Of a stretch of 38,509 nt of DNA, positions 8,115 to 31,134 are shown one piece after another. The notes beneath the pieces were generated by a model. That model made no database searches. It was not told where the DNA came from and saw only the letters and a program-made list of their open reading frames with translations. Both the position numbers and the translations under genes were made by a program. Position 1 is the stretch's first letter; each line of letters starts with the position of its first letter. The stretch comes from a virus: positions 1 to 38,509 of the IMG/VR virus record IMGVR_UViG_3300042459_000110. One strand, written 5' to 3'.

Positions 8115-8890
8115 TACTCTCCCGTAACCTGACGCTTAAGCAAATCAGACAAAGCATAGTTTTTATAGTTCTTTCCAACTTTTTTCTTGATAGCAGTCTC
8201 AAGTTGAGGAACCAAAGCAGTAATCTCAGCATCCTTCAAACCCTGCTTCTTGGCATAATTAGTAAAACCAGAAACCTTAGAGGCAGCAAAAGCATCCACG
8301 CTGGTAGGGACATCAGCCAAACCAGTAATACCAGTTTTTGTAGCCAAGTAATCCCCAGCAGCAGTTTCCCTAGAAGTAATACCTAACTTTTTGCGTCTAT
8401 CTGTGTATGCTGCCATTTGTTTCTTTTGACGCTGAACTTCAGTTCTTTGAAAAGCATCCAAATCGGCATCCATAGAAGCCATAACATCATCATATTCATC
8501 CGATGTCATGTTGAATTTACCGAGAACAACATCTTTGTTGTTGTCGTAGGTGTCACGAATCATAGAAAAGGTAGTCAAGTCAGAACCCTGTCGTTTTACC
8601 TCACCCCAAAATTCGCTAGCAAACTTAGCAATACCACCACGCATATTTCGGTATTTAGCCTCTGTGTCGTTAAACTCAAATGCTGGGTCATAAACTTTAT
8701 CTTTATAAAACCTGCCATAACCAGTGACTTCTTTTTTGGCTCGCTTTTGAAGTGAACCCAAAACACTAGGATTGTTTACTAATGCACGAATAATCTGCCC
8801 AGTGGAAACATCAGCATCCGTCAGCAACTCAACATTGCCACCTGAAAGTTGTAAAATTTGTGCAATTTGGTCATCCGACAACTTAGCCAT
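8114..8890 (-). CDS. Putative internal virion protein (258 aa)
   Basis: Charged and predicted largely helical, with a basic middle (residues 100-170) and a lysine-rich C-terminus. No family is recognised. It is coupled through TAATG to the giant ejection protein, suggesting a partner in the internal core. It is preceded by a TAGAACA-N7-TATATAT motif (8902-8922) and by AGGGG as a plausible ribosome-binding site. Confidence 0.65.
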   Translation of the reverse strand: MAKLSDDQIAQILQLSGGNVELLTDADVSTGQIIRALVNNPSVLGSLQKRAKKEVTGYGRFYKDKVYDPAFEFNDTEAKYRNMRGGIAKFASEFWGEVKRQGSDLTTFSMIRDTYDNNKDVVLGKFNMTSDEYDDVMASMDADLDAFQRTEVQRQKKQMAAYTDRRKKLGITSRETAAGDYLATKTGITGLADVPTSVDAFAASKVSGFTNYAKKQGLKDAEITALVPQLETAIKKKVGKNYKNYALSDLLKRQVTGE

Positions 8891-8901
8891 AATAAACCCC
8901 T

Positions 8902-8922
8902 ATATATAAAGAAAATGTTCTA
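8902..8922 (-). promoter_or_regulatory. Late bipartite motif TAGAACA-N7-TATATAT
   Basis: On the minus strand TAGAACA (8916-8922) is followed after exactly 7 bases by TATATAT (8902-8908), upstream of the 8890 start. The TAG is also the stop codon of the preceding gene. It is one of seven copies with the same 7-base spacing at late-gene boundaries. Confidence 0.55.
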
Positions 8923-10263
8923 TTGTGCAAGTCTATTAGCGGCGTTGGTTTGCCCAGAAATCAACGCCTCAATACCAGCCTGAATAAGTCGTTGACGCAT
9001 AGCCTCAGCCTCAGCCGTAGACCTACCCTGCATCGCAGCAGTATTTTGCGTCACGCCAAGACGAGCAGCAGCCTGCCCACCTATCCCAGCATTCCTCATA
9101 GCCTCAAAATAACCTTGGTCAGCCTGTTGCATCTGCTGTGTACCACGACTCAACAACTGAGACATAAACTGATTAAAACCAGCATCCTGTGTTTGTTGCT
9201 GCTGGGCTTGCTGCCCAGTAGCACCATAAGCATTCAAGTTCTGAGTCAAACCCTGAAGTTGAGGGACCAATTCGGCAATAGGAACATTGCTATATGCAGT
9301 AGGGGCAACAAGACTAGCAAGATAATCGCTAGTTGCTTTATCAATAGAAGTATTTGCCTGTTCTGCCTGTGTCTTATAAAAGGCTTGCGAGGCTGCTTGT
9401 GCCTTGTTGAAAGCATCCGTAGCCATAGTATTATATTGTTCCTGTGCTTTTACACCCGCAGCAGCCAAATCTGCAGCGCCACTCTTGGCTCGTTCAGTCT
9501 CTGCCTGCCTGTCCTGCAGTGTTTCTGCACGCTGACGATTTTGGTCTTGAACTTCAAAACCACGCTGACGGCGTTGGTCCTGCAGTTCCCACTGACGGTC
9601 CTGCCTTTGACTGGCTGTAACAGCACCGCTAGAACCGCTACCGCTAGAACCAAATAAAGCACTTAAAGCAGCAGTTTCTGCAGGTGAATTATCAGGAAAA
9701 GTTTTCTTCAACCATGCATCAAGAACAGGGTTTGCCTGTGTTGCAGGTGGAACAGTAGTCGTTGTAGTCCCCTTAGGAACAGTGGTAGTTGTAGTTCCCT
9801 TGGGAACAGTAGTAGTTGGGCTTCCCTTAGGGACCGTGGTTGTCGGACTACCCTTAGGAACGGTAGTCGTAGGAGAACCCTTTGGTGTTGTAGTGGTAGT
9901 AGTACCCTTAGGTGTTGTGGTAGTAGTCGTACCCTTAGGCGCTGTTGGCTTAGCCGTTCCACCCGTTCGTGGGTTGTTCGCACCAATAGGTGCAGACCCC
10001 TTATATGCTTGACTACCAGCAGGAAGGTTATACGCTACACGCCTACCACCAACAGTAATTTCATACTTTCCTGTTTTTTCATTATAATCCAAAGGAGTGT
10101 CAGGAACACCACCAGCATTTCTGTATTTAACAACACCAGTATTAGCGTCAATATAAACATCACCATGAAAAGCAGGATAATTAGTAATCGGCTTGTCTGT
10201 GCCGTCAACACCCATAGGTGCTCTTTCATATCTGCCAGATTGCGGATTCCATTTTGTAAGCAT
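8920..10263 (-). CDS. Virion-associated protein with Pro-Thr repeat linker (447 aa)
   Basis: Three regions are visible. Residues 1-100 are a compact part rich in G, Y and D. Residues 109-171 hold seven 9-residue repeats of the form PKG(T/S)(T/P)TTT(V/T). Residues 200-447 are Gln/Ala/Arg-rich and coiled-coil-like. This suggests a head domain joined by a flexible linker to a rod. Placement among internal/tail proteins supports a structural role such as tail or ejection component. It is preceded by AAAAGGAG. No known family is recognised. Thr-rich repeats like these occur in surface proteins of some Actinobacteria, but I cannot prove a link. Confidence 0.65.
   Translation of the reverse strand: MLTKWNPQSGRYERAPMGVDGTDKPITNYPAFHGDVYIDANTGVVKYRNAGGVPDTPLDYNEKTGKYEITVGGRRVAYNLPAGSQAYKGSAPIGANNPRTGGTAKPTAPKGTTTTTTPKGTTTTTTPKGSPTTTVPKGSPTTTVPKGSPTTTVPKGTTTTTVPKGTTTTTVPPATQANPVLDAWLKKTFPDNSPAETAALSALFGSSGSGSSGAVTASQRQDRQWELQDQRRQRGFEVQDQNRQRAETLQDRQAETERAKSGAADLAAAGVKAQEQYNTMATDAFNKAQAASQAFYKTQAEQANTSIDKATSDYLASLVAPTAYSNVPIAELVPQLQGLTQNLNAYGATGQQAQQQQTQDAGFNQFMSQLLSRGTQQMQQADQGYFEAMRNAGIGGQAAARLGVTQNTAAMQGRSTAEAEAMRQRLIQAGIEALISGQTNAANRLAQ
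9751..9939 (-). repeat. Seven 27-bp in-frame tandem repeats
   Basis: Seven units of 27 bp encode PKG(T/S)(T/P)TTT(V/T). The central three carry S-P in place of T-T. Units differ at synonymous positions, so the array is not fresh slippage, but copy number could vary between relatives. Confidence 0.9.
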
Positions 10264-10275
10264 AATAAACTCCTT

Positions 10276-10713
10276 TTAGTAACTAGCGTATTGTTTAATA
10301 TCAGTGGCAGAGGACAAAACAGCCTGCTGCTTAGCCAACCTAAGTTCAGCCAGATAACTGTCAAGTTCAGACTGTTGACCAGCATCTCTAAGAGAAATAG
10401 TGTTTAACTCATCTTGAAGATTCTCAGACTCAACGCCCAAATCTCGCTGGAGATTTTTGGCGTACTTCTCTAAACCAGTAGTACGAATACCAGACGAAAC
10501 ATTAGGACCGCCAAAACCACGGCGACCATAATCAGCAACCATTGGAGTAAAGCCCTCGCTATATTGGCGTTGAATATCATCCATGCGGCGTGCGCCACGC
10601 TTCTGCCCCAACAAAGAAGCCTGCAAGTTAGCCGTAGACTGATTTTTACGGCGGCGAATAGCACCAGCCTCAGACACGCCATAATTACCATAAAATGCTT
10701 GGAAATCACTCAT
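10276..10713 (-). CDS. Putative virion protein (145 aa)
   Basis: A basic N-terminal half (RRRKNQ, GQKRGARR) is followed by a Gly-rich turn region (YGRRGFGGPN) and a C-terminal coiled-coil-like helix. AGGAG lies upstream at good spacing, and the ATG overlaps the stop of the 46-aa gene (ATGA). No family is recognised; the neighbours point to a tail or internal-core role. Confidence 0.6.
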   Translation of the reverse strand: MSDFQAFYGNYGVSEAGAIRRRKNQSTANLQASLLGQKRGARRMDDIQRQYSEGFTPMVADYGRRGFGGPNVSSGIRTTGLEKYAKNLQRDLGVESENLQDELNTISLRDAGQQSELDSYLAELRLAKQQAVLSSATDIKQYASY

Positions 10714-11660: not shown

Positions 11661-13304
11661 CTATCCTTTAACCCTTCGTGGGGTCCACTTATAACCAATA
11701 CTGTTGATGCCCCAAGGCTTGCCCAGTTCACCAGAAAAACGAAGTTGCACCGTCTTAGCCAAACCAAGATTCTTTGCTGTTTTAATTGTGCTAGACACAA
11801 CACCACTAGACCAAACAGAACCAGACACCGAACCATCAAGCGACTCATTAGCCCATGAATCATCATCCCAAAACATACCCAACGAGGCAGTAGGAAGAAC
11901 AATGTCAAATGTCCGTGCTTCAGAACCATCAGACTCTTGGAAGTCATGGTACACGCCAACAGCAACCTGTAGGCGTGTCTCTGATTCCTTCATAACAAAG
12001 TCAGGTCGGCGGAACATTTTACGCTGCATATAAGAACCAGCATCAAACCACTTAGTACGATAAACAGTTGGATAACCAGCCGATGCGCCACCAGCAGCAA
12101 TCTTGTCTACGGATTCGTCATACATGTCAACCTGCATAATTGCTGCAGTTGTAGGGTGAAGCATTAACTTCAAATCTGCACCTGATGAGTTTCTAAAGTC
12201 ACATCCACTCAGAACTCCTTTGGAGTCTGCAGTGGAAAACATCATGTATGCATTAATGGTTGGGTCAAAAATTAAGTTAATTGTTGGACCTGTGGTATTG
12301 CCAACAGTGGAGTAAGGCAGGGACAACCAAAGGCGTCGACCAACCCAACTCAAAGTAACAGCGATGTCTTGTGCAGGGTTGATATAGTTCAAGTCAAATG
12401 CTGGTTTCATGTTGTTGAAAACATCAATAATGTTTGAACCGTCAAAGAAAAACAAACCATCATCATGGCTATAAAAATAAACACCAGTGTCCGTTGCTGC
12501 CATTTGTGCATGGTCACTGCAACCAAGTGATGTTGATACTTGTACTACACGGAAATCAGTGTAAGTATAACCATACAAAACATAAATAGCATAAGGCTTA
12601 AAAATGACCAGTGCGCCATTAACAACGACAATGCCACGGATGCCATCGCCACCACCCTGAATATCAATATAATCTTCTTTGACCCAGTTCTCTGGGAGTG
12701 ATTCATCCGACCAGCGAAGACGGTTTGGAAACTCTGAACCGTCTTCATGGATGTGTGCTGCAAACATTTTATTAGCGTGAACAGCAAGATGCTCGGCACG
12801 AGGAACATGACCGCCACCAGAACCGCCCCTAGTAGCCCAAGTGTTAGGAGAAGTACTAACCCTAGGTAACGCCACAGCATTCCCAGCACCAGACCACTTA
12901 TAAAAACCAGTAGTACCAACATCACCTGCACCTATATATAAAGTTTCACCCCAAGCAGCAAAACAAGCCCCATCAACACTTTCAATATTAACAGGACCAG
13001 CGCTGGTGTTTAAAACAGCAAAGTTGTTGCTTGTAGACATATAATAAACACGGTTATTATTAGCCAACATTAAATGGTTTGTCGCACCATAAAAAGAAAA
13101 CAACTTATGAGGAACCCAAGCAACACCAGAAACATTATCAGGATTTAAACGCTGCATAGCACCACGGCTAAAAACACCACCACGAGGGTCAATCTCAACA
13201 TTAAGCATCTCAGGAGATTCGTTGTCTTTCAACTGGAACTGGTCCGAACGCAAGTTCAGACCACCAGTAAAATCCTTCTGCTCATAAATCTGGATAGCCG
13301 ACAC
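11661..13304 (-). CDS. Tail tube / nozzle-like protein (547 aa)
   Basis: A beta-rich protein with repeated blade-like segments (L-F-S-F-Y-G-A; L-Y-I-G-A-G-D; V-Y-F-Y-S-H-D-D-G-L-F-F-F-D-G), compatible with the propeller-containing T7 gp12-like tail proteins. It follows the adaptor-like gene, the same order as in podoviruses (adaptor, nozzle, fibre). The start is a GTG sharing one base with the upstream TAG, and a G-run upstream could serve as ribosome-binding site. Assignment rests on length, beta pattern and gene order. Confidence 0.6.
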   Translation of the reverse strand: MSAIQIYEQKDFTGGLNLRSDQFQLKDNESPEMLNVEIDPRGGVFSRGAMQRLNPDNVSGVAWVPHKLFSFYGATNHLMLANNNRVYYMSTSNNFAVLNTSAGPVNIESVDGACFAAWGETLYIGAGDVGTTGFYKWSGAGNAVALPRVSTSPNTWATRGGSGGGHVPRAEHLAVHANKMFAAHIHEDGSEFPNRLRWSDESLPENWVKEDYIDIQGGGDGIRGIVVVNGALVIFKPYAIYVLYGYTYTDFRVVQVSTSLGCSDHAQMAATDTGVYFYSHDDGLFFFDGSNIIDVFNNMKPAFDLNYINPAQDIAVTLSWVGRRLWLSLPYSTVGNTTGPTINLIFDPTINAYMMFSTADSKGVLSGCDFRNSSGADLKLMLHPTTAAIMQVDMYDESVDKIAAGGASAGYPTVYRTKWFDAGSYMQRKMFRRPDFVMKESETRLQVAVGVYHDFQESDGSEARTFDIVLPTASLGMFWDDDSWANESLDGSVSGSVWSSGVVSSTIKTAKNLGLAKTVQLRFSGELGKPWGINSIGYKWTPRRVKG

Positions 13305-14026
13305 TAATCAAGCCCCCAATTAGAACGATTAGAACCAAGGCTGTTGAGCCAACCATTATAAGTAGGACGGCGCTTGGTTTGTCCATTCGTCAAAATCATT
13401 GGGTTGTGACTGGTTGGGGTTGTTGCGTTGCGAACAGCAAGAGCAACACCCTCATCATACGCACGCTTATACATTTCAGCCATAGAAGAATCTTCCAACT
13501 GCTGATACACACGACTGCACGCATAGTAAACTAACGGGAAATGCAACGAAGCAGGCGCATCAACATCGCCACCCTCAGTCTGCCAGTCAAATGGCTCACG
13601 ATAACCACGAGCAACCAACTGACGCACATTATTAGGCTTAGGATACAAATGAATCTTGTTAGCCCACACCGCATAAAACAACGGGTCGCTGTTGGTGTCG
13701 TAAGAACCAATATAGGTTTGCTCAGCCATATCATAACCAATCATGTCCAAACGGTAACCAGTGCCACGGTTGTCAACAATAGACACAACCTGCCCAAGAG
13801 GTTCATCGGTTAAAGTAGCAATTTCATACTCACGAACACCCGTTCGTGTGTTGAAAGTAAATGAATACTCCAAGAAACCCCAACGCTTTTCTGTATCCAA
13901 AATACGGTAATACCCGTCACGGATATAAAGATTCAACAACGCATCCGACAAGTCATCAGAATCAAGGTCAGTAATACTTCTTACAGCAGCCCGAATATCG
14001 GCTGCAGTCATAGTTCTAAACGCCAT
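13304..14026 (-). CDS. Head-tail adaptor-like protein (240 aa)
   Basis: The ATG at 14026 is chosen for GGAAG upstream; a start at 14059 is less likely because it lies deep in the previous gene, and 14011 is possible. The N-terminal helical part (TAADIRAAVRSITDLDSDDLSDALLN) resembles phage adaptor/T7 gp11-type proteins that bind the portal ring, followed by a beta-rich middle (L-G-Q-V-V-S-I; Y-A-V-W-A-N-K-I-H-L-Y-P-K-P). It lies between the head gene cluster and the tail-tube gene, which supports the call. Confidence 0.65.
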   Translation of the reverse strand: MAFRTMTAADIRAAVRSITDLDSDDLSDALLNLYIRDGYYRILDTEKRWGFLEYSFTFNTRTGVREYEIATLTDEPLGQVVSIVDNRGTGYRLDMIGYDMAEQTYIGSYDTNSDPLFYAVWANKIHLYPKPNNVRQLVARGYREPFDWQTEGGDVDAPASLHFPLVYYACSRVYQQLEDSSMAEMYKRAYDEGVALAVRNATTPTSHNPMILTNGQTKRRPTYNGWLNSLGSNRSNWGLD

Positions 14027-14267
14027 CAGCCACTTCCAAATCCTTCTTGACCTTGGCAACCGACCTCAGATGACCAGCACAAAACTCCTCATTCTTTACA
14101 CGGTTGCCTTCACAGGTGTCGTCCTTGCCAGCACACTTATTACCACGACCCAAATAAGGACCAGAGGCAGCAGCAATACGGGAACCAGCCTGCTCTCCAG
14201 CAGGACGGTTCCCACTTACGGGCTTACCATAATAAGAATGGGCAGGGACAGAACCTAGAATACTCAT
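14016..14267 (-). CDS. Small cysteine-containing, probable zinc-binding protein (83 aa)
   Basis: Possible metal ligands are C45, C52, C63 and H66 (C-x6-C, then C-A-G-H), a pattern I associate with short treble-clef-like phage proteins. A flexible Gly/Ala-rich N-terminus precedes it. The ATG at 14267 has no Shine-Dalgarno and instead abuts a TAGAACA-N7-TATTTGT motif (14268-14288). Located among head genes; role unknown. Confidence 0.6.
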   Translation of the reverse strand: MSILGSVPAHSYYGKPVSGNRPAGEQAGSRIAAASGPYLGRGNKCAGKDDTCEGNRVKNEEFCAGHLRSVAKVKKDLEVADGV

Positions 14268-14291: not shown

Positions 14292-14807
14292 TTATTTATT
14301 TTTGCCCTTAGGTGGCTTTCTGCCAATACCATACTTTGCAAGGTCAGCACGAATTTCCGCAACAGTCCTATCAGCCTCAAAAGAAGAAGAACCTCGTGGA
14401 GCAGGAGGACGCAAAGTAGCCTTGGAGGGTGGCTTAATAATAGAACCACGAACATCAACAGGCTTAGCATTCCCACTAGGTTTAGACTTAGGTTTTGCAT
14501 CTCCAGTTTGACGCAAAATACGATTAGCCTCACGCTCGGCAGCACGCTTTTCACTATCTGTTAAAGGAAGTTTTTTGCCTTTAGCATAATAATCACGCCT
14601 AGGACGGGCAGGGGTGGTACGAGCAATCTTGCCAACTGGTTTCCCAGAAACCGTTGTTGCACCTTTTGGCTTTGCACCAATCTTGCTTGAACCAGTAGTA
14701 GAAATACCTTTGGTTTTTTGAAGTAAATTATAACGGGCTTTTTGATTACCCTTATTATTTAACTGCTTCATAACAGCCTTGAGAATATCGTCAATAGGTA
14801 ACTTCAT
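14292..14807 (-). CDS. Basic protein with short PIDDI N-terminal tag (171 aa)
   Basis: Begins M-K-L-P-I-D-D-I-L-K-A-V-M-K-Q-L, the core of the tag shared by neighbouring genes, without the MAxRKP preface. The rest is a Lys/Arg/Pro/Ser-rich low-complexity body ending KPPKGKNK. It is expected to be disordered and to bind nucleic acid or capsid surfaces. The ribosome-binding site AAGGAAAG overlaps the end of the upstream gene. No known family; the tag and position suggest a head-internal protein. Confidence 0.65.
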   Translation of the reverse strand: MKLPIDDILKAVMKQLNNKGNQKARYNLLQKTKGISTTGSSKIGAKPKGATTVSGKPVGKIARTTPARPRRDYYAKGKKLPLTDSEKRAAEREANRILRQTGDAKPKSKPSGNAKPVDVRGSIIKPPSKATLRPPAPRGSSSFEADRTVAEIRADLAKYGIGRKPPKGKNK

Positions 14808-14808
14808 G

Positions 14809-15306
14809 TTACTTTCCTTTTGGTTTAACTTTAGGAGGTGTTTTTTTGCCTAAACCAGACTTGGCAAGCATGTCAGTTTTACCACGAGGAGCAACTTTAT
14901 TTACAGTCTTTTCCAAAGCAGTAGAAGCACCAGCAAGCGTGGAACCTTTAAGTAAACCACGGACAGCCTTAGCACCTTTGACATATTTAGCACCCTTGAC
15001 TGTTTTATCAACAATTTTAAATGCTTTACCATAAGGTATAAGCCAAGCACCGCTATTGATGGCAACATCCTGCCAACCCTTTTTAGGGTCACCAAAGGCA
15101 GTTTTTATAGCAGCAGTGGAACCTTTTGCTACAGCGTTTCCAGCCTTGGCTGCGCCTTTAACAGTCTTGCCACGAATGTTTGCTGCCTGTGCAATCTGTG
15201 CAGAAGCCATAGCGTTACCACCCTGCTTGGGTGGTTTACCGCCATTAACAATATTGCTTACAGCATTAAGAATGTCTCTTAAGCCTTGAGGTTTCTTAGG
15301 AGCCAC
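14809..15306 (-). CDS. Basic Ala/Gly/Lys-rich protein with variant N-terminal tag (165 aa)
   Basis: The start is taken as the GTG at 15306, because this yields M-A-P-K-K-P-Q-G-L-R-D-I-L-N-A-V, aligning with the tags of its neighbours; the upstream ATG would add 26 unrelated residues overlapping another gene. The body is Ala/Gly/Lys-rich with an amphipathic middle (NSGAWLIPYGKAFKIVDKTV) that may insert into or contact membranes or capsid. It ends PPKVKPKGK, with AAAGGAAAG then serving as ribosome-binding site for the next gene. Confidence 0.6.
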   Translation of the reverse strand: MAPKKPQGLRDILNAVSNIVNGGKPPKQGGNAMASAQIAQAANIRGKTVKGAAKAGNAVAKGSTAAIKTAFGDPKKGWQDVAINSGAWLIPYGKAFKIVDKTVKGAKYVKGAKAVRGLLKGSTLAGASTALEKTVNKVAPRGKTDMLAKSGLGKKTPPKVKPKGK

Positions 15307-15856
15307 TTGGACGGCGACCAGTCTTGTTTTGCCATTCACGATAAGCACGCTGAGCCTTAAGTCTAGAGGTAGCGTTTGGTGCATTATCTATAGCAGCCTT
15401 TAACTTCTTGCCTTTTTCAATCTGGCTAGCATTTCCTCGTGCGCTCTGAGAACCAGCAGCACCCGAACGGCTCTGAAGATTTGCAGCATCACGGCGTGAA
15501 ATAGGAATTTCACGCCCACCCCTATAAAGCGTACCCTTGGATTTTACACCATCAGCAGCCTGTTGAACATTGACAACACCTTGACCCTTACGGATAATAC
15601 GAGCATCTGACTCTTTTGAAGCAGCCTTTCGTACAGCAGACTTTTGCTCTGCAGCAGATTCCAAACCACGCTTCATAGAAGAACTCAACTTTTTAGCAGA
15701 AGCACCCTTGCCTTGTGAATTCATTTGACCAACAATTTTACCACCAACACGGCTGGCGGCTTTCATGTCGCCTTTTTGCATCTTACGGATAACTGCAGCC
15801 GCAATTTTTGCCACATCATCGCCCCAAGCAATATCTGGTTTCTTGCGACTAGCCAT
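15296..15856 (-). CDS. Basic protein with variant N-terminal tag (186 aa)
   Basis: Begins M-A-S-R-K-K-P-D-I-A-W-G-D-D-V-A-K-I-A-A-A-V, a diverged version of the shared tag. The remainder is Lys/Arg/Ser/Ala-rich with helical stretches and ends G-R-R-P-S-G-S, close to the G-R-R-P-S-S-N end of the 20325-20801 protein. It is translationally linked to its neighbours (TAATG at 15856, 11-base overlap with the next gene). No family is recognised. Confidence 0.65.
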   Translation of the reverse strand: MASRKKPDIAWGDDVAKIAAAVIRKMQKGDMKAASRVGGKIVGQMNSQGKGASAKKLSSSMKRGLESAAEQKSAVRKAASKESDARIIRKGQGVVNVQQAADGVKSKGTLYRGGREIPISRRDAANLQSRSGAAGSQSARGNASQIEKGKKLKAAIDNAPNATSRLKAQRAYREWQNKTGRRPSGS

Positions 15857-16116
15857 TAGCGTCCACCCTTATACTTCTGGAACATCGCATCAGCCTTTTT
15901 CATGTTTTCAGCCTGCTTGCGTGTCTTCCTTTGAGAACGCAAAGTAGAAGGAACGGAATCTTTTCCACTTTTTATAACCTTTTTTTCCAACTTTGCAACA
16001 GACTTAATGTTTGTCTTTGCAACACGGTTAAGGTTTTTCTTTGAAATTTCCTTCATGACCGCTTTGACGATGTCGTCAATCGGTCCAAGTTGAATTGCTG
16101 GTTTGCGTGGAGCCAT
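15856..16116 (-). CDS. Small basic tagged protein (86 aa)
   Basis: The ATG at 16116 lies two bases after the upstream stop. The N-terminus is M-A-P-R-K-P-A-I-Q-L-G-P-I-D-D-I-V-K-A-V (the full tag), the body is Lys/Arg-rich, and the C-terminus is Y-K-G-G-R. The bases encoding this end, AAGGGTGG, could double as a ribosome-binding site for the next gene, so C-terminal similarity to its neighbour may reflect that. Confidence 0.7.
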   Translation of the reverse strand: MAPRKPAIQLGPIDDIVKAVMKEISKKNLNRVAKTNIKSVAKLEKKVIKSGKDSVPSTLRSQRKTRKQAENMKKADAMFQKYKGGR

Positions 16117-16118
16117 AA

Positions 16119-16394
16119 TCAACGACCACCCTTATATGTTGAACGGATGTTTTTTACTTGGTTACGAGTAACTCGTGGCTTGCCTTTTGCTACATGCTTA
16201 ATAATTTGTTCATCGCTCATGCCCTTTGTTGTAGGGTCTTTACGAATTGTGTTATATTGCCCACGGCGTACATCAGCACGAACATTGTTTCGTACAACAC
16301 TGCGGCTTGGTTTTGAACTTTGTTTAAGAACTTTTGCAATAGCCTTTGCAATGTCGTCAATGGGGAATTTTAGTTCTGGTTTTCTAGCAGCCAT
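16119..16394 (-). CDS. Small basic tagged protein (91 aa)
   Basis: Begins M-A-A-R-K-P-E-L-K-F-P-I-D-D-I-A-K-A-I, the clearest form of the shared tag. An Arg-rich body (SRSVVRNNVRADVRRGQYN) follows, with a possible helix-turn-helix-like stretch (MSDEQIIKHVAKGKPRVTRNQVKNI), and it ends T-Y-K-G-G-R. AAGGAAAG at the end of the upstream gene precedes the ATG. Likely DNA- or capsid-binding; family unknown. Confidence 0.7.
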   Translation of the reverse strand: MAARKPELKFPIDDIAKAIAKVLKQSSKPSRSVVRNNVRADVRRGQYNTIRKDPTTKGMSDEQIIKHVAKGKPRVTRNQVKNIRSTYKGGR

Positions 16395-16396
16395 GA

Positions 16397-16591
16397 TTAC
16401 TTTCCTTTACGCATTTCTGCGCTGTTTGCGCCTTTGGACTTTGGAAACTTAAAAGCACCAGAAATCCCGAATTTTTTTCTCTTTGCTGCCACTTCAGCAC
16501 GCTTTTGTTGTTCCATACGATTAATACGAGCAATATGGTCGTAAATAGTGTCTGGTTTAGGTCTTTTGGGGTCAAATGGATTAAATGCCAT
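16397..16591 (-). CDS. Small basic protein after the capsid gene (64 aa)
   Basis: A Lys/Arg-rich protein with a helical middle (HIARINRMEQQKRAEVAAKRKK) and Phe/Pro-rich ends. It lacks the MAxRKP-PIDDI tag of its downstream neighbours. GAGAGAG precedes the ATG. It lies just downstream of the hairpin that follows the major capsid gene. Function unknown. Confidence 0.65.
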   Translation of the reverse strand: MAFNPFDPKRPKPDTIYDHIARINRMEQQKRAEVAAKRKKFGISGAFKFPKSKGANSAEMRKGK

Positions 16592-16620
16592 AATGAAACT
16601 CTCTCTTGTTTAAATAGAAA

Positions 16621-16652
16621 GACGGGGGAGGGATATAATCCACTCCCCCGTC
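16621..16652 (-). terminator. Strong hairpin downstream of the major capsid gene
   Basis: GACGGGGGAG (16621-16630) and CTCCCCCGTC (16643-16652) form a 10-bp GC-rich stem. On the minus strand it is followed by a T-richer stretch. It probably reduces read-through or protects the 3' end of the abundant capsid message. Confidence 0.7.
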
Positions 16653-16670
16653 AATACCTATTATGTTCTA
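16650..16670 (-). promoter_or_regulatory. Late bipartite motif, weaker copy (TAGAACA-N7-TATTGAC)
   Basis: TAGAACA at 16664-16670, 7 bases, then TATTGAC at 16650-16656, placed between the capsid stop and the hairpin at 16621-16652. The second half is a poorer match than in the other copies. Confidence 0.4.
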
Positions 16671-16678
16671 ACTACTAA

Positions 16679-17644
16679 TTAAGCAGTCTTTGCAGTCAAC
16701 TTACCCTGCTTAGCACGGTTACGGATAGTAAGGTTACCGTAGCACATGATAAGAGCGTAACGAGCGTCCATGTTTTCTGGACGAACGAAAGCGGTGTTCT
16801 GGAACCACTTTTCTGAGTGACCAACAAGGCTAATGTACTTAGAGTTGATGAAGAACATCGTACCCGAAGGTGCGTGAACATCATAGGTTACAGGAGCCGA
16901 CTTGAACAGCAAGTTCTGGAAACCAGCATCTGCAGTCTTGGTGTCGGTGTAACGCAACTGTGGCTGCAAGAGTGACTCATACTTTTCAAACAATGTTTGA
17001 GTAGTAAGAACCATATCAGGATGGTCGTTACCAACAGAAACGCTGTTGTAAGCAGTTGCCATCTGTGCAAGAGTCAAAGCACCTGCGGTGTTTTGCTCGT
17101 ATGAACGCCACCAGTCGTTACCCTGACCTGAAGCCGAGTTAATACCACCAACAGTGTTGCCTGATTCAATCAAGTTTCCAAGACCGTTCCAAGACTTACC
17201 TGAGTTTGTACCACCAGCACCAAGGGTGTCGGTTCCGTCACCAAAGAACATCTGGTTGAAGCCTTCACGAAGTGATTCTTCAGCCTGCATAATCTTGGCT
17301 TCCAGCAAGTTAATAACTTCCTGTTCGCCGTTGTTCTTGGCTTCTTCAATACCGCTAATTGCGATAGAAGCAGCATACTGCTTCCAATCAAACTCAGCAG
17401 CCGAAATACCATCTTGTGGGGTAAGGTCAATTGAGTCATAACCAGAGTATGGCTTAACAGTTGAGTTCTGACCATAAATCAAAGGCTCAACAATCTTTGT
17501 ACCACCATTTACCATGCGGATACGACCCTTGTCCATAAGGTGATAGGTCAACGGACGAGCCGTAAACACATTGTCTGTCAACTGGTCACGATAGTTCGCA
17601 AGCGTGGTTGAAAGAATTGCATCAAAGTTACTATTTCCAGGCAT
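16679..17644 (-). CDS. Major capsid protein (321 aa)
   Basis: Length, composition and context (directly after scaffold and portal) fit an HK97-fold major capsid protein. Features include an N-terminal arm (DAILSTTLANYRDQLTDNVF), an E-loop-like region (GGTKIVEPLIYGQNSTVKPYSGYD), a long acidic spine helix (KNNGEQEVINLLEAKIMQAEESLREGF) and a C-terminal domain ending in basic residues. AGGAG at normal spacing precedes the ATG and sits in a small hairpin loop. It is followed by a strong stem-loop. I see no separate decoration gene. Confidence 0.85.
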   Translation of the reverse strand: MPGNSNFDAILSTTLANYRDQLTDNVFTARPLTYHLMDKGRIRMVNGGTKIVEPLIYGQNSTVKPYSGYDSIDLTPQDGISAAEFDWKQYAASIAISGIEEAKNNGEQEVINLLEAKIMQAEESLREGFNQMFFGDGTDTLGAGGTNSGKSWNGLGNLIESGNTVGGINSASGQGNDWWRSYEQNTAGALTLAQMATAYNSVSVGNDHPDMVLTTQTLFEKYESLLQPQLRYTDTKTADAGFQNLLFKSAPVTYDVHAPSGTMFFINSKYISLVGHSEKWFQNTAFVRPENMDARYALIMCYGNLTIRNRAKQGKLTAKTA

Positions 17645-17660
17645 TATATTCTCCTATAAT
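17643..17660 (-). promoter_or_regulatory. Hairpin presenting the capsid gene ribosome-binding site
   Basis: On the minus strand ATTATA pairs with TATAAT around the loop GGAGAA. The Shine-Dalgarno is exposed in the loop just before the capsid ATG at 17644. Similar hairpins occur before several plus-strand genes. Confidence 0.4.
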
Positions 17661-17664
17661 TAAA

Positions 17665-18480
17665 TTAAAAACTGGCGTTATATTGTTGCTTGGCAGCAGC
17701 CCAAGCATCAGCGATAGAGCCAATATGGGCAATAGTTTCGGTAGTTGTACTGCTGGTAGCCGATGAGCCACCCGACACAACCCCTGCTTCACGCTTCTGC
17801 TGAACAACCTGAGATTCTCTCTGTTGCTTAGCCTGCTGTGCTGCAGATTCCAATTCTTTTTGCTTCATAAAACGGTCAAACGCTAACTGCTTATACATTG
17901 CTTCCAAGTTGGTTGTCCCTGCCTTAATAGCGGCATTAACAACCTCTGTTTTATTGAAATCCTCATACTTAGACTGCAAGCGGTTAATTTCCGCATCAAT
18001 CGCCTGTTGCGATTGATGTTCCTCAAACTGGGCAATACGCTGGTCAAGTTCACGCATCTTCCGTTCCACTGGGTCCAAATCCTCAAACTGAGAATCCATA
18101 TCATCAACCAAATCCTGTGCTTGTGCACGAGAAATGCCGTAATGACGACTCAATAGTTCCAGAGTTCCAGCAGGGTCATTATCAAGAGCAGACTGCAGAG
18201 TGGAAGCAAACTCTAAAGATTGCCTTTGCTCTGCTAATTCCTGCGTCTTGCGTGTATAATCTGCTTGACGCTGATAACCAGCAATAGCCTCAGAAAGCGG
18301 AACTTGCAGTTCCTCACCATCAAGTTTAACAGGAATTCGGTAATCCGAATACTCGTTAAGGTCCAAGGTTGGTGATTCTGTGGTTTCAATTACCTCACTG
18401 GAATCGGGTGACCCACCATCAAATTCAACATCTGTTGAAATGGGTTCCACATCAGATACGGGTGCGAAATCTTCGCTCAT
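17665..18480 (-). CDS. Capsid scaffolding protein (271 aa)
   Basis: Placed between portal and capsid, acidic at the N-terminus (VSDVEPISTDVEFDGG) and helical and Gln/Glu-rich in the middle, with coiled-coil character (residues 90-215), followed by a Ser/Thr-rich linker and a short C-terminal helix (SIADAWAAAKQQY) that may contact the coat. This is the usual form of phage scaffolds, which direct procapsid assembly and then leave. An upstream AGGAG is present, and a TAGAACA-N7-TATATAT motif lies 37 bases before the ATG. Confidence 0.85.
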   Translation of the reverse strand: MSEDFAPVSDVEPISTDVEFDGGSPDSSEVIETTESPTLDLNEYSDYRIPVKLDGEELQVPLSEAIAGYQRQADYTRKTQELAEQRQSLEFASTLQSALDNDPAGTLELLSRHYGISRAQAQDLVDDMDSQFEDLDPVERKMRELDQRIAQFEEHQSQQAIDAEINRLQSKYEDFNKTEVVNAAIKAGTTNLEAMYKQLAFDRFMKQKELESAAQQAKQQRESQVVQQKREAGVVSGGSSATSSTTTETIAHIGSIADAWAAAKQQYNASF

Positions 18481-18516
18481 AATATTTTTTTCTCCTAGAG
18501 TCCAAACGGTTGCTCT

Positions 18517-18537
18517 ATATATAAGAATCTTGTTCTA
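18517..18537 (-). promoter_or_regulatory. Late bipartite motif TAGAACA-N7-TATATAT before the scaffold gene
   Basis: TAGAACA at 18531-18537, 7 bases, TATATAT at 18517-18523, then a normal leader containing AGGAG before the ATG at 18480. A start for the scaffold-capsid transcript is plausible here. Confidence 0.6.
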
Positions 18538-18542
18538 GGCTC

Positions 18543-20309
18543 CTATGCAGGAGGTTGTCCTTGCTGCAACATAGCCATAATCTCGGGCGGTAAACCACCC
18601 TGCGGTGCAACAGCACCTTCAGGTGGCATCTGCTCAGGCGGAACAGCACCCTGTGGTGGCATACCACCCTGTGGTGCGCCACCCTCAGGACCTATGGGCA
18701 TAGGAGGAGGCGTGGACAAGAACTTCTCTGGGTTCTTAATGTTGAATCCCTGAGACAATACATATCCAGCCAGTTCCTGCATGTTGACGATTCCAGCACC
18801 AGCGAACGGAGCCATAGCGTCAACCATCTGCAAAGCCATTTGACGGCGTTGAGCCTCGTTATGTGGCTGTGTAGAACCACCTACAACCTCAAAGTCAAAG
18901 TCGCCCTCAAGATAGTCACGGTCATAAGTGACCCACATTGGTTCGCCATCTTTAGAGGTAAGGCGAGCAACTTGCTCACCAGTCATATACTGCTGTGCCA
19001 GCATCAACATACGGCGAGCAACAGCAGAAATGGCAATTTCCACAATTGATAACTTGTCTGATGTTCGTGCGTTAGCAGCGTCCTGCACCGCACTGATTTC
19101 AGTAGCGGTACGGCGAATCTCAGGCAAACCACCTGACATAAACTCAGGCAAACCAGTAATACGGTTAATGTCGTCAGTAATCAACTGTGACTGGTTGTAA
19201 AACTCTGGAGGAGAAATAACAGCAGGCATAGGAATGATTACGCCACCAAGTGGCTCATCAGAAACCACGGGAACCATAACATTGTCTTGGTCTGACTCTA
19301 GTGCTGTGCGACCAAACTGGTCAAATGCTGATTCCTTGTAGAGATACTTACGGGCGAAACGCTTACGATGATTCATCATCTGTGAGCGTGTTTCGTTCAG
19401 TTCTCTTTGGAGTGGTTCAATCTGTTCAAGGTCGCCCATAGGATAAAAACAATCAGGGACATCATAATTGCGTAGCATAACAAATGGATGACCAAACGCA
19501 TATGGCATACGCATTGGGTCCACCAAGAACGACTCGCCACCTTCCGAGAATACACACATAACATTGTTTTGGATGTCATAATATTCCCAAATCTCGGCAT
19601 AACCATAGTTTTTGTCGTAAACCTTGCGAACACTGGGGTCTTCGCTATAACGACCAACAGCAGCAATAGTCACATTTTCACGGGCTGTCTTGTTATAACG
19701 CTTGTCTGTTTTTACTTCGCCAATAGGACGGCGGATACGCTGAGCAATCCACTTAATGTCGTGCATACTGGTAGCATCGCAATCAACAAAAATGTCAAAC
19801 GGTGACACACGCTCCGCAAACGGTGAATCCTGAAGGATAACATTGTTGGTAGTTGCCTCTCCACCCATAATAGGGTCGTTGTCATCGCCTTCTTCTCCGA
19901 TGGCAGATTCTTCAACAAAACGATAACCAGTCTTAACCCAACCCTGACCAGTAATCAACAAGTCTTTAACGGCACGGCGAAACTCAGAACGAATATCACG
20001 ATACTTCCACCAATAGTTAACAACCGCCTCGGCAACGACTGCCTGAGCAGCGTTGTCGGGCTTTACAGCATTAACGGTAATCTTAGGGTAGTTAACAGCA
20101 ACAGCAGGACCAATAACATTGATTGTGGAGAACGCAATGTTAATCAACATGCGGTCTTCATCACTATAGGCATCATAATGCTTGCCTTTATAAAGGTCAA
20201 TTAGTCTACGCCATGTAGCATCATAACCTTCATCTTTACGCCACTTCTTGGAGGCTTCAAGATGCTTGCGATAATTAGCAAGTTTTTCTGATTTTGATTT
20301 ACGAGCCAT
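18543..20309 (-). CDS. Portal protein (588 aa)
   Basis: Podovirus-type portal. It has a basic N-terminus, Y-K-G-K-H-Y-D-A-Y, an early helix-rich wing (SEFRRAVKDLLITGQGWVKTGYRF), a central section with P-F-D-I-F-V-D, the segment L-E-Q-I-E-P-L-Q-R-E-L-N-E-T-R-S-Q in the stem/crown region, and a proline/glycine-rich disordered C-terminus with repeated P-P-x-G-A motifs (about residues 525-588). Twelve copies would form the DNA channel at one vertex, binding terminase during packaging and the adaptor afterwards. It lies upstream of scaffold and capsid as expected. Confidence 0.88.
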   Translation of the reverse strand: MARKSKSEKLANYRKHLEASKKWRKDEGYDATWRRLIDLYKGKHYDAYSDEDRMLINIAFSTINVIGPAVAVNYPKITVNAVKPDNAAQAVVAEAVVNYWWKYRDIRSEFRRAVKDLLITGQGWVKTGYRFVEESAIGEEGDDNDPIMGGEATTNNVILQDSPFAERVSPFDIFVDCDATSMHDIKWIAQRIRRPIGEVKTDKRYNKTARENVTIAAVGRYSEDPSVRKVYDKNYGYAEIWEYYDIQNNVMCVFSEGGESFLVDPMRMPYAFGHPFVMLRNYDVPDCFYPMGDLEQIEPLQRELNETRSQMMNHRKRFARKYLYKESAFDQFGRTALESDQDNVMVPVVSDEPLGGVIIPMPAVISPPEFYNQSQLITDDINRITGLPEFMSGGLPEIRRTATEISAVQDAANARTSDKLSIVEIAISAVARRMLMLAQQYMTGEQVARLTSKDGEPMWVTYDRDYLEGDFDFEVVGGSTQPHNEAQRRQMALQMVDAMAPFAGAGIVNMQELAGYVLSQGFNIKNPEKFLSTPPPMPIGPEGGAPQGGMPPQGAVPPEQMPPEGAVAPQGGLPPEIMAMLQQGQPPA

Positions 20310-20324
20310 TGCTTTTTCTTTTCT

Positions 20325-20801
20325 TTAGTTACTGCTTGGTCGTCTGCCGCCACGGCGTTGAATTTTTTGATAAGATTCTGCAAAGTCATATGCTCTTGTC
20401 ATATCCATACCTTTTCGTTCAGCCATAGTCTGAGCAATATCACGAATACCTTTTTGAGTTATGCTTTCAAGTTTCATGTCGTGTTTAATCATTTCTTTTT
20501 TAATGACATGTGCTGGTGTATTTCGGTTGAATGTAGTAGCAAAAGCCCTTTCATCTGGAGTAAGCGATGACCAGTCAGGCATAGCCTTTGGAGCAGTTTT
20601 CTTTGCAACCGTAGGAGCAGCCTTTTGGGTTGTTTTGGTTTTGCTTGCTGGCGTAACCTTTTTTCCTCCTGTTTTAGTTGCAACTTGCTTAACTTTTGTC
20701 GCAGCAGTCGTTTTGACTGTACCCTGTGCTTTTTTAGTTAAAGCCTTGATTGCTGCTTTTACGGCATCATCAACAAATCCTTGCGGTTTTCTAGGAGCCA
20801 T
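20325..20801 (-). CDS. Basic tagged protein upstream of portal (158 aa)
   Basis: Begins M-A-P-R-K-P-Q-G-F-V-D-D-A-V-K-A-A-I-K-A-L, the same tag as the post-capsid basic proteins although separated from them by portal, scaffold and capsid genes. It continues with a Lys/Thr/Ala-rich linker and a more ordered C-terminal part (DERAFATTFNRNTPAHVIKK, then GIRDIAQTMAERKGMD), and ends G-R-R-P-S-S-N. Function unknown; position and tag suggest packaging into heads. Confidence 0.7.
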   Translation of the reverse strand: MAPRKPQGFVDDAVKAAIKALTKKAQGTVKTTAATKVKQVATKTGGKKVTPASKTKTTQKAAPTVAKKTAPKAMPDWSSLTPDERAFATTFNRNTPAHVIKKEMIKHDMKLESITQKGIRDIAQTMAERKGMDMTRAYDFAESYQKIQRRGGRRPSSN

Positions 20802-20803
20802 AA

Positions 20804-21103
20804 TTACTTCTTATAGTAAGAGTTTGCACGGCGACCCATATCCATAATTTCAGAACCACTTACAGTTCCAGTTGGACTATTGGACAATTTTCTTTTTAGC
20901 ATCTTTTCATAAGCGTTGTCTTGTGCAGACTTTTTAGCGGAAGCGGCAGCCTTTTTAGCGGCAGCCTGTTGTGCTGCCTTTGCTTTTGTTGCCTTTGCTG
21001 ATTTGCTCATGGCAAGTTTTGCTGCAGCCTTTGCTGCTCCTCGTGCAATATCGCTAATGCCCTGAGAATGCAAGCCAGTAATTGCGGGTCCTTTCTTAGC
21101 CAT
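20804..21103 (-). CDS. Ala/Lys-rich histone-tail-like protein (99 aa)
   Basis: M-A-K-K-G-P-A-I-T-G-L then G-I-S-D-I-A-R-G-A-A-K-A-A-A-K-L-A is a distant variant of the shared tag. It is followed by an Ala/Lys-repeat region (residues 35-60) like those of DNA-compacting proteins and an S-P-T-G-T-V-S-G turn. It would bind DNA or RNA by charge. It precedes the tagged 158-aa gene with a two-base gap. Confidence 0.65.
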   Translation of the reverse strand: MAKKGPAITGLHSQGISDIARGAAKAAAKLAMSKSAKATKAKAAQQAAAKKAAASAKKSAQDNAYEKMLKRKLSNSPTGTVSGSEIMDMGRRANSYYKK

Positions 21104-21717: not shown

Positions 21718-21738
21718 ATTAATAGCAATCTTGTTCTT
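21718..21738 (-). promoter_or_regulatory. Late bipartite motif AAGAACA-N7-TATTAAT next to ATG
   Basis: AAGAACA (21732-21738; first base differs from consensus), 7 bases, TATTAAT (21718-21724), then ATG at 21717 with no Shine-Dalgarno. The large terminase stop codon TAA overlaps its first base. Confidence 0.5.
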
Positions 21739-23339
21739 TAAAGTGGATTTTGGGTTGTGGAACGAACATTATGCGCCCCAATAGGGATTTTTCCTTCTCC
21801 AACCTCACTAAAAAGATGTTGTTCCCACCACAGAAGACTGTTTTTGGGTACATTTGTGTCCCCACGGTACTCTGGAAGCCAAACATACTTCAACATTTGG
21901 TTAGTAATAGCCAAACTCATGGTTCTGTCGTCATGGGGGGACCCAGCCATCTTCCCGTTGTCCTTGCGAACAAAGGTTCTCAACTCTCCAATGGTCTTGT
22001 AACAGTAAATTATGATATCTTCGTTGCGAATAGCAGCAACTAACTCGTCAATAGCCAACGGCTTTGAGGAAGCCGTTGTGCGCCAACCAAGAGTCTCAGT
22101 CGCTTGTGGCGAACGAATAGTAAGTTTGCGCTGTCTATATAGGTTTCGGTATCCACAACGCTGTGCAGCCTTTAGAGTGGTCAATCCGTGGTTGTTAGAC
22201 TCAACTCCGACCAACGCTTGGTTGTACCACCAACCGAGGTCGGCAAGTAGGTCACCAAAAAGGTCAGGTTCAATGTGACCATGCCAGTGGGCAACAACCT
22301 CACCTGTGGAGGCATTGACAATGTGGGCAGAACTATAGTCGCCATGAACTAAACCTTCCGCCACATCCGCCCCAATCACATAAACACATTCTGGACGAGG
22401 AAAGTCCCAAACTGTTAATGGACCATCATCGGCATTGCGGAACTCGTAGTTTTTGTCCGAGTAAACATGAAGATATCCTTCTTCGGGGTCAATCATTTCA
22501 AACGAATCCAACAGGTCAATGTCAAACACGGGGTTGCCTGATTTTACGAATGCTTCTTCAGGTGACCGTGGGTATTCTTGGTGCAACTGCCAAGATGACA
22601 TGTTTCGTGCTTTGACTGTGTACCAGTCTTCGTCACGGTCACCAGCAGACCACGGAAAGAAAATACCTTCAAACTGGTTGGTCCCAGTTTGGGAACCAAC
22701 CCACAGTTGATGAAAAAAGTTACCTGAACCGTTGGCGGTAGACAAACCAATGACTCGCCCGCCGACATCGGCAATCGGTTCAATAGAAGCCCATGCTTCC
22801 TCAGGGTTAGGCAAGAAACCCCATTCGTCTACAATAACTAAATACACAGACTCACCACGAGCAGGGTCCGAACCGCTAGGTAGCGACTCAATGGCAGACT
22901 CGTTATCAAACATCATTTTTTGCTGATGGTCTGTGGTTTGCTTCGGTCCACGCTCTTTCATCCACTGAGGAATAAAACGATAACCGTACTTAGACTTGGC
23001 AAGCAACTTAACTGATTCACGCTCTGTCCTAGAAAGCATAACTACAAAACGGTCAGGACGGAAATACACCAGCCAAAAAGAATATGCTGCAGCCAGAGTG
23101 GAGAAACCAATCTGGCGTGCCTTAAGAACTACACTGTAGCGTGCTGTCATCCATGTACGCATAGTTTCAATCTGCGCTTCACGCATTTCAAACAAAATAC
23201 GCCCCTGTTCGGGGTGTTTAATATGCCAGTAATGTTCACAGAAGTAAATGAACGCATCCAGTTCTTCTTCTAGGGTAGCGTTTTCTGGTCCACGGCATAA
23301 ACGCCATTCACGCTCGTTAATTAATTGTTGAAGGTCCAT
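21738..23339 (-). CDS. Terminase large subunit (533 aa)
   Basis: ATPase motifs: an unusual Walker A-type L-K-A-R-Q-I-G-F-S-T (72-81), Walker B Y-L-V-I-V-D-E (166-172) and coupling motif L-S-T-A-N (199-203). Nuclease domain (RNase H-like fold) acidic residues: D325 (V-I-G-A-D-V-A), D334, E380 (V-G-V-E-S-N-N-H-G) and D470/D471 (S-P-H-D-D-R). The enzyme pumps DNA into the procapsid through the portal and cuts concatemers. Length is typical. Its start overlaps the end of the 371-aa orphan by 23 bases. Confidence 0.92.
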   Translation of the reverse strand: MDLQQLINEREWRLCRGPENATLEEELDAFIYFCEHYWHIKHPEQGRILFEMREAQIETMRTWMTARYSVVLKARQIGFSTLAAAYSFWLVYFRPDRFVVMLSRTERESVKLLAKSKYGYRFIPQWMKERGPKQTTDHQQKMMFDNESAIESLPSGSDPARGESVYLVIVDEWGFLPNPEEAWASIEPIADVGGRVIGLSTANGSGNFFHQLWVGSQTGTNQFEGIFFPWSAGDRDEDWYTVKARNMSSWQLHQEYPRSPEEAFVKSGNPVFDIDLLDSFEMIDPEEGYLHVYSDKNYEFRNADDGPLTVWDFPRPECVYVIGADVAEGLVHGDYSSAHIVNASTGEVVAHWHGHIEPDLFGDLLADLGWWYNQALVGVESNNHGLTTLKAAQRCGYRNLYRQRKLTIRSPQATETLGWRTTASSKPLAIDELVAAIRNEDIIIYCYKTIGELRTFVRKDNGKMAGSPHDDRTMSLAITNQMLKYVWLPEYRGDTNVPKNSLLWWEQHLFSEVGEGKIPIGAHNVRSTTQNPL

Positions 23340-29855: not shown

Positions 29856-31085
29856 ATGGCTCATCCAATGCCCACCATCAACTCAGTTGAGTTTTCAACT
29901 CAACGAGTTACCTATACCGACCATGAAGGTCGGACTAAAACTGACCGTTTCGGTTGGTTGCCGAAGAATGGCAAAATTGCCACTCTTAAGCACTGTGGCT
30001 TCAAGTTCACAGGCAAGACTCCATTAGGATGGAGTGACGATGAACTTGCCAATGCTTGGCAACTTGTCCTTGCCGACAATGGAACTAAGGTTCCACCAAC
30101 ACCAACACCAACTCCGAAGGAGGAGACACCCAAAATGGCTACGCCATCAACCAAGTCCAAACCACAAAGTGGTTCACTTGACGAGATGATTCGTCAAATC
30201 GTTGTGGATACTGTCGGTGATACCGACATTATCGCTCCAATGATGGACGAAATGGCTTCCCTCAAGGAAGCAATCGCCAAGATTCAACCGAAGGTTACCG
30301 AAATTAAAATCGGTGACCATGAGACACGAAAGTTGGATGGAATCCAACACCACATGTTCTCCAAGGTTTTGGCTAACATTGCCAGTGGCGTACCGTCCTA
30401 CCTTGTAGGACCTGCAGGAACTGGTAAGTCAACCATTGCTCAGAACGCTAGTCAAGCCCTTGGCTTGGAGTTCCGTTCTAAGTCATGCTCTAGCCAGTCA
30501 ACAGAGTCCTCTCTGTTGGGTTATATGTCGGCAACTGGCGATTATGTCGGTACTGGCTTCAGAGAAGCCTTTGAGCATGGTTATGTCTATCTTCTAGACG
30601 AAGTAGACAACGGCAACGCCAACATCCTCACTGTTCTTAACAGTGCATTGTCCAACAACTTTATGGCATTCCCTGATGGAATGGTGAAGCGTCACGAGAA
30701 CTTCGTTCTCATCGCCACAGCCAACACCTTCGGTCATGGAGCCACGGCAGAGTATGTGGGTCGTAATCCTTTGGATGCAGCGTTCCTTGACCGTTTCGCT
30801 AGCCTTGAAATTGGCTACGACAACGAAGTTGAAGAAGCGATGTTGCAGTCCGTAGGACTTGACCCAACACTTGCCACGAAGTGGCTTAAGGTTGTTCGTC
30901 AATGCCGACAGAACGCTACCGACTTCGGTCTTCGTGTCGTGGTTTCACCACGAGCCACAGTTCACGGAGCAAAAATGCTCCGCCATGACGGTATCTATAA
31001 CTTCAAAGAAGTTGTGGAAGCCACCATCCTTAAGGGTGCTAAGCCCGAAGTTGCCCACAAAGTGTTGACTGGTGTGGCTCTCTGA
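29856..31085 (+). CDS. CobS/MoxR-like AAA+ ATPase (409 aa)
   Basis: An N-terminal domain (1-75) with a conserved-looking W-L-P-K-N-G-K segment joins a Pro/Thr linker (80-96) and a helical region. The AAA+ module follows: Walker A G-P-A-G-T-G-K-S-T (185-193), Walker B Y-L-L-D-E-V-D (245-251), sensor I A-T-A-N (287-290) and arginine-finger-type L-D-R-F (311-314). This pattern is close to CobS, MoxR and dynein-related AAA proteins, which remodel protein partners, often a vWA-type one. The next gene is the likely partner. An in-frame ATG at 30135, after AAGGAGGAG at 30117-30125, could give a shorter form lacking the N-terminal domain. Confidence 0.85.
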   Translation: MAHPMPTINSVEFSTQRVTYTDHEGRTKTDRFGWLPKNGKIATLKHCGFKFTGKTPLGWSDDELANAWQLVLADNGTKVPPTPTPTPKEETPKMATPSTKSKPQSGSLDEMIRQIVVDTVGDTDIIAPMMDEMASLKEAIAKIQPKVTEIKIGDHETRKLDGIQHHMFSKVLANIASGVPSYLVGPAGTGKSTIAQNASQALGLEFRSKSCSSQSTESSLLGYMSATGDYVGTGFREAFEHGYVYLLDEVDNGNANILTVLNSALSNNFMAFPDGMVKRHENFVLIATANTFGHGATAEYVGRNPLDAAFLDRFASLEIGYDNEVEEAMLQSVGLDPTLATKWLKVVRQCRQNATDFGLRVVVSPRATVHGAKMLRHDGIYNFKEVVEATILKGAKPEVAHKVLTGVAL

Positions 31086-31115: not shown

Positions 31116-31134
31116 ATAATTCTGGAGGAATTAT
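31116..31134 (+). promoter_or_regulatory. Shine-Dalgarno presented in a hairpin loop
   Basis: ATAATTC (31116-31122) pairs with GAATTAT (31128-31134) around TGGAG. The pairing reaches into the start codon at 31133. Confidence 0.6.

Follow-up and report, generated by a model that had tools for sequence, protein, structure and literature searches.

A shared N-terminal peptide on unrelated basic proteins as a candidate capsid-targeting signal in a clade of P22/SU10-type phages

Why should small basic proteins that are unrelated over most of their length, and are encoded around the capsid genes of one phage, all begin alike? The question was raised by a 38.5-kb virus record (the whole stretch of DNA that we analyzed, hereafter the window), in which the starts of seven such proteins had been seen to align. 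The original proposal was that the common start, or tag, would be a capsid-targeting signal, different from that of phage T4, on a set of cargo proteins delivered with the DNA. We studied the tag in the window and in related phages, using profile searches, comparisons of gene bodies and DNA, and structure models.

Seven tagged genes among the head genes

The head genes of the window all lie on the minus strand and include a large terminase (21738..23339; phrog_2, E 5e-31), a portal protein of the P22/SU10 type (18543..20309; PF16510, P22_portal, E 8e-21; PF23899, SU10_portal, E 2e-18), a scaffolding protein (17665..18480; phrog_3927, head scaffolding, E 1.5e-14), the major capsid protein (16679..17644; phrog_9953, E 4e-76) and a head–tail adaptor (13304..14026; PF24175, SU10_adaptor, E 1.5e-17). 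The terminase gene opens an upstream block of tagged genes and the adaptor gene closes a downstream one, with two tagged genes before the portal gene and five after the capsid gene, the order originally described.

The seven genes, all on the minus strand, were found with the starts claimed for them (21103, 20801, 16394, 16116, 15856, 15306 and 14807); the E values that follow come from a tag profile trained on other phages, unless stated otherwise. Between terminase and portal, a protein of 99 residues (MAKKGPAITGLHSQGISDIARGAAK...; 20804..21103, tag at about 21020-21103; E 3.1e-9) has orthologs with the same tag in two relatives (L003 and L013; family F11), and one of 158 residues (MAPRKPQGFVDDAVKAAIKAL...; 20325..20801, tag at 20742-20801; E 4.8e-8) has its body replaced in close relatives. 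After the capsid gene come proteins of 91 residues (MAARKPELKFPIDDIAKAIAKVLK...; 16119..16394, tag at about 16323-16394; E 2.1e-8) and 86 residues (MAPRKPAIQLGPIDDIVKAVMKE...; 15856..16116, tag at about 16042-16116; E 2.6e-11), the start at 16116 being an ATG internal to an open reading frame that opens with TTG at 16122. These are followed by proteins of 186 residues (core family F1, MASRKKPDIAWGDDVAKIAAAV...; 15296..15856, tag at about 15785-15856; E 2.9e-4 with the full profile, E 0.74 and rank 7 of 1,244 in the leave-out search), 165 residues (core family F2, with a GTG start, MAPKKPQGLRDILNAV...GDPKKGWQDVA...; 14809..15306, tag at about 15247-15306; E 7.1e-7) and 171 residues (core family F0, MKLPIDDILKAVMKQL...; 14292..14807, tag at about 14757-14807; E 4.8e-5). 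The tag at 21103 had been called weak and is in fact among the strongest. The caution that C-terminal similarity (KGK, YKGGR) may reflect overlap with the next ribosome-binding site was justified, as these codons coincide with the place where ribosomes would bind for the following gene (AAAGGAAAGTAAxxATG). All seven bodies are basic (pI 10.5-11.3), and none matched Pfam or PHROGs below E 0.001. A further small basic protein, encoded in the interval between the capsid gene and the tagged genes (16397..16591, minus strand), is untagged (tag profile E 15, not significant).

Other parts of the record have features of their own. Just before the adaptor, positions 14016-14267 encode an 83-residue protein (MSILGSVPAHSYYGKPVSG...GRGNKC..DDTCEGN...CAGHLRS) that is kept in most relatives, tagged and untagged alike, and whose conserved Cys and His residues resemble a metal site; it matched no family. 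The region 2790-10713, at the position of the P22 ejection proteins, encodes a 1774-residue protein and three further late gene products, with no family matches and no tag. The plus-strand genes begin with a pair consisting of 29856-31085 (phrog_249, annotated as porphyrin biosynthesis, E 3e-62) and 31133-31972 (phrog_1909, of unknown function, E 8.5e-53).

Relatives of the capsid protein are encoded on at least 599 IMG/VR stretches, and the clade is thus large. The closest capsid in a deposited phage, the uncultured record MW202803.1, is 40% identical and comes from an untagged phage. No capsid relatives were found in the bacterial genomes of GTDB, so that no host could be assigned, and in cultured phages neither F0, F2 nor the one accessory body searched for had a convincing homolog.

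A conserved peptide heading about 40 protein families

The tag profile was built from the seven window genes and their relatives, then refined, and was used to scan every possible start codon in 168 related loci. Among the capsid-bearing loci of these contigs, it matched 205 genes at E<=1 on the coding strand (146 distinct proteins once redundant contigs are discounted), none on the opposite strand of the same loci and none among shuffled N-termini. Strong "internal" matches were few, all within the first 50 residues, and mostly explained by misplaced starts. As the window genes had helped build the first profile, we repeated the search after training only on phages with a major capsid protein <93% identical to that of the window; the seven genes then took ranks 1-7 among 1,244 window N-termini, with E values from 2.6e-11 to 0.74. 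Under a stricter scheme, in which every body family occurring in the window was also removed from training, five of the seven were the top five of 1,244 (E 1.1e-8 to 1.3e-3), 15306 dropped to E 4.8, and 15856 was not among the matches listed. No further open reading frame in the rest of the window matched the profile (next E 15). The shared tag was therefore confirmed more strongly than first stated, and the proposed search with the tag alone recovered it across related phages. A search of IMG/VR with a DNA pattern of the tag found it only in this clade wherever the stretch bears marker genes (one, L174, is too short).

The tag can be written approximately as MAx(K/R)KP(A/Q/K)I-(0-10)-(G/P)IxDDIxK. 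By column counts, it consists of M-A-(A/S)-(K/R)-K-P-(A/K/Q)-I, a spacer of 0-10 residues, (G/P)-(I/L) and a D-D core, which reads in full D-D-(I/L/V)-(A/I/V)-(K/R)-x-h-x-K-x-(L/V/A). The column of the second D is occupied in 143 tags, and in all 143 the residue is D. Some members, including the window gene starting at 14807 (MKLPIDDILKAV), carry the second half only. Across 40 family representatives, only the first ~25 residues can be aligned, giving the consensus MAxxxKPAIxxPxGxxDDIxKxxxK with one invariant D, followed by almost nothing. Left out of this set were F37 (L098, TTG start at +5036), probably a false positive, and F38, which has the first half of the tag only. The D-D segment is helical in both predicted models, at residues 9-20 in F2 and 10-25 in F3, at low confidence; the AlphaFold model of F2 (pLDDT 44) is uninformative except for this helix.

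At identical tag residues in different families, the codons differ in 50.7% of cases, against 50.1% expected if codons were drawn freely according to the usage of these genes. The tag is thus conserved as a peptide, with selection acting on the peptide rather than the DNA, and the signal is not a DNA or ribosome-binding feature.

After removal of the tags, 142 bodies formed 46 clusters by BLAST and 42 by profile merging, while reversed sequences gave one chance match below 1e-4. Setting aside one cluster that is probably false and another that is half-tagged, we count about 40 body families, all headed by the tag and without detectable similarity to each other; the agreement of N-termini on differing bodies, described for the window, holds across all of them in the relatives. 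The outcome named as refuting the idea, that the tags are parts of separately conserved whole-protein families, did not occur, because the D-D-(I/L/V) core is kept across the ~40 families, and at the protein rather than the codon level. Tagged proteins have a median pI of 10.6, against 6.3 for other open reading frames. No body was convincingly recognized in Pfam, PHROGs or PADLOC, the weak matches (best E 0.002-0.007) looking like composition, and no tagged protein had a convincing Pfam or PHROG match to known ejection-protein families. The core families F0, F1 and F2 occur in 23, 20 and 17 loci, respectively; the other families are sporadic.

Exchange of bodies and placement in the clade

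Related phages had been expected to swap bodies and keep the tag, and such swaps are seen between the window and L003, L013 and L133. The window and L003, with capsid proteins 98% identical, show 83% DNA homology up to window position 20742, which lies 60 nt into gene 20325-20801 and is the end of its tag; homology is absent over the whole body and returns at 20326, at the stop codon of the gene. When the two proteins are compared, only MAPRKPQGFVDDAV and MPPKKPQGFIDDAV align. In L013 and L133, the homology to the window breaks within the same tag, 38 nt in. Elsewhere in the clade, L108 and L158 have tags 97% identical as protein and DNA that is near-identical for ~90 nt, followed by unrelated bodies, and L157 bears the L158 body (74% identity over 54 residues, E 1e-26) behind a different tag. 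A search for the pattern RQGHPxGIIDD found the same tag on still more bodies, on stretches that, apart from one too short to judge, all carry clade marker genes. Tags and bodies recombine.

The body replacing that of gene 20325-20801 in L003 and L013 belongs to family F3, which is absent from the window itself. A model based on five F3 sequences (pTM 0.52; block means of pLDDT in the beta core ~65-82) had as its top three matches among solved structures the Arr rifampin ADP-ribosyltransferases (best E 0.036, probability 0.89), with further ADP-ribosylating proteins lower down. Among viral proteins, the matches included Arr-, DarT- and PARP-like ones, the strongest being unnamed. Residues H48, Y94 and E130 are invariant in the five sequences and would fit an active site of the H-Y-E type. 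The model thus makes F3 a candidate ADP-ribosyltransferase-like cargo, paralleling Alt, an ADP-ribosyltransferase that T4 packages and injects (PMC9026906).

As predicted, the tag is N-terminal and tagged genes are confined to the head-gene blocks: 203 of the 205 lie in two of them, 37 between terminase and portal and 166 between capsid and adaptor. A tagged phage carries from one to seven. At the threshold used, roughly half of the different capsid types that we sampled lack the tag, which makes it dispensable in the clade at large and counts against a targeting role, although some of these are missed calls, as in L132 (MAQKPRPQWEDDLAKKF). Mapped on a tree of the capsid proteins, having or lacking tagged genes requires eight changes, at least four of which are forced by well supported branches.

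Other proteins occupy the region after the capsid gene in some phages. L101 (9620-10720), L078, L104 and L057 have larger proteins in place of the tagged set, several starting with MAQSRNPSERNKVGEKKK and with a tag-like WxDxI or DDAxKA segment further in; these may be fused cargo. The untagged L025, L034, L035 and L056 have other Lys-rich, low-complexity proteins, possibly cargo without a signal or with a different one.

Explanations of the tag and comparison with known systems

We consider it probable that the tag serves injected cargo as a capsid-targeting signal, similar to that of T4 in its working and unrelated in sequence. We infer the virion location, the docking site, the injection and the function of the bodies, and the course of events would be as follows. 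The seven proteins would be made from the late operon together with the head proteins, and their common peptide (basic K/R-K-P residues and a flexible spacer, then a short helix with D-D-(I/L/V)-x-K) would dock during procapsid assembly on a shared site inside the head, be it the scaffold, the portal or the capsid interior, so that different bodies could be loaded. The Lys-rich bodies would stay among the packaged DNA and be injected along with it, the variable bodies then acting on different host targets, and new cargo would be gained through recombination in or just after the tag. The original interpretation was supported in part, and every prediction of it that sequence could address was borne out. 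No protease family was recognized among the genes scanned, which took in part of the small open reading frames and among which divergent proteases could be missed; cleavage therefore looks unlikely, and the tag probably stays on the cargo. We also considered mimicry of the scaffold C-terminus (ISDAWAAAKRQL) by the tag helix and rejected it: at the median, the resemblance got no higher than the top 0.5% of all windows, and tagged phages did not score better than untagged ones. The more elaborate claim, of an independently evolved and uncleaved loading code of ~25 residues in P22/SU10-type phages, freely shuffled among at least 40 cargo families and delivering a fast-changing injected arsenal that includes ADP-ribosyltransferases, we hold tentatively, at slightly under an even chance.

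The tag could instead be a docking peptide through which the proteins assemble, mutually or on a single hub, into an internal core or ejected complex, and not an address for cargo. Most phages in that part of the clade to which the window belongs have the core families F0, F1 and F2, always in one order, like the subunits of a machine, and F2 is predicted, at low confidence, to be helical. Most families, however, are sporadic and exchanged between close relatives, the set ranges from one to seven, and we found no constant partner that every tagged phage has; we regard such an assembly as unlikely. The strongly basic bodies (median pI 10.6) also resemble DNA-binding proteins, as would suit proteins acting in the infected cell rather than in the virion, with the tag binding a host factor (nucleoid, polymerase or protease) late. 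That account is less probable again, given that tagged genes lie in head-gene blocks, with none in the replication region at the opposite genome end, and that one of the exchanged bodies looks like an ADP-ribosyltransferase, the kind of enzyme that the T4 virion delivers.

Descent from one old, tandem-duplicated family, in which the bodies diverged beyond recognition and the N-terminus changed most slowly, would agree with neighboring genes of similar size and composition that share a start, and with a tag identity only modestly above body identity in the core families (0.47-0.61 against 0.35-0.41). Yet the bodies can be aligned within families and not between them, even though tags are up to 97% identical between families; the sharp breaks in DNA homology at the tag end and the occurrence of one body with different tags lead us to reject divergence alone as the source. 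Tandem duplication is contradicted for the exchanged genes and may be the origin of some families, but as a general explanation it is very improbable. There is hardly any case for the idea that the apparent peptide signal is really a property of the DNA at gene starts, serving ribosome binding, translational coupling or recombination: short DNA matches around start codons do exist, such as one of 29 nt between L013 and the window gene starting at 16394, but codon choice at identical residues is free and the conserved residues lie 10-25 codons into the gene, behind spacers of variable length.

Returning to capsid targeting, the closest precedent is T4, in which diverse basic injected proteins have only the targeting sequence in common (PMC3012670, PMC12373910, PMC9026906). 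Outside their N-terminal leader Ip1-Ip3 have no similarity, and each blocks a different restriction enzyme (PMC12373910); the loading of IPIII requires its first ten residues (PMC9026906). As here, IPI, IPII, IPIII and Alt are small, basic, unrelated proteins sharing only a short N-terminal peptide, and the bodies vary between related phages at fixed loci. The T4 cargo also includes an ADP-ribosyltransferase, Alt, to which F3 would be the candidate counterpart here. The T4 signal of 10-20 residues is removed by the protease gp21, whereas no protease was recognized among the genes scanned here, and the T4 genes lie at separate loci, those of the window inside the operon for head genes of a P22/SU10-type podovirus. 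The N-termini of IPI, IPII and IPIII are not matched by the tag profile, in line with the original view of a different tag. Because of this and because no prohead protease was recognized among the scanned genes, we propose that the window system is not a member of the T4 system and that the tag is a second, separately evolved targeting signal. The T4 targeting sequence has allowed injected anti-defense proteins to be recognized from sequence alone (PMC12373910); if our reading is true, about 40 unknown families become candidate injected effectors, in phages whose host takeover is uncharacterized. Under the more elaborate claim of a shuffled loading code, the tag would by itself give the list of injected effectors for an entire uncultured clade.

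The inner head proteins of SPN3US and phiKZ, many and different, are likewise thought to be targeted by N-terminal stretches (PMC5694885), but these are giant myoviruses, several of whose propeptides are longer than 100 residues and are cut off by a prohead protease. P22, with a related portal and head-gene order, has the internal proteins gp7, gp16 and gp20, whose candidate counterparts here (2790-10713) lie away from the tagged genes and have no tag. We know of no common N-terminal tag on the P22 ejection proteins. In encapsulins, a short peptide addresses different cargo into a shell of the HK97 fold, the cargo-loading peptides being C-terminal and the compartments bacterial rather than phage. 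Set beside these systems, the tag, if correctly read, would mean that the use of a portable peptide to load cargo arose at least twice and can do without a protease, and would offer a second, small and simple system for placing chosen proteins in phage heads.
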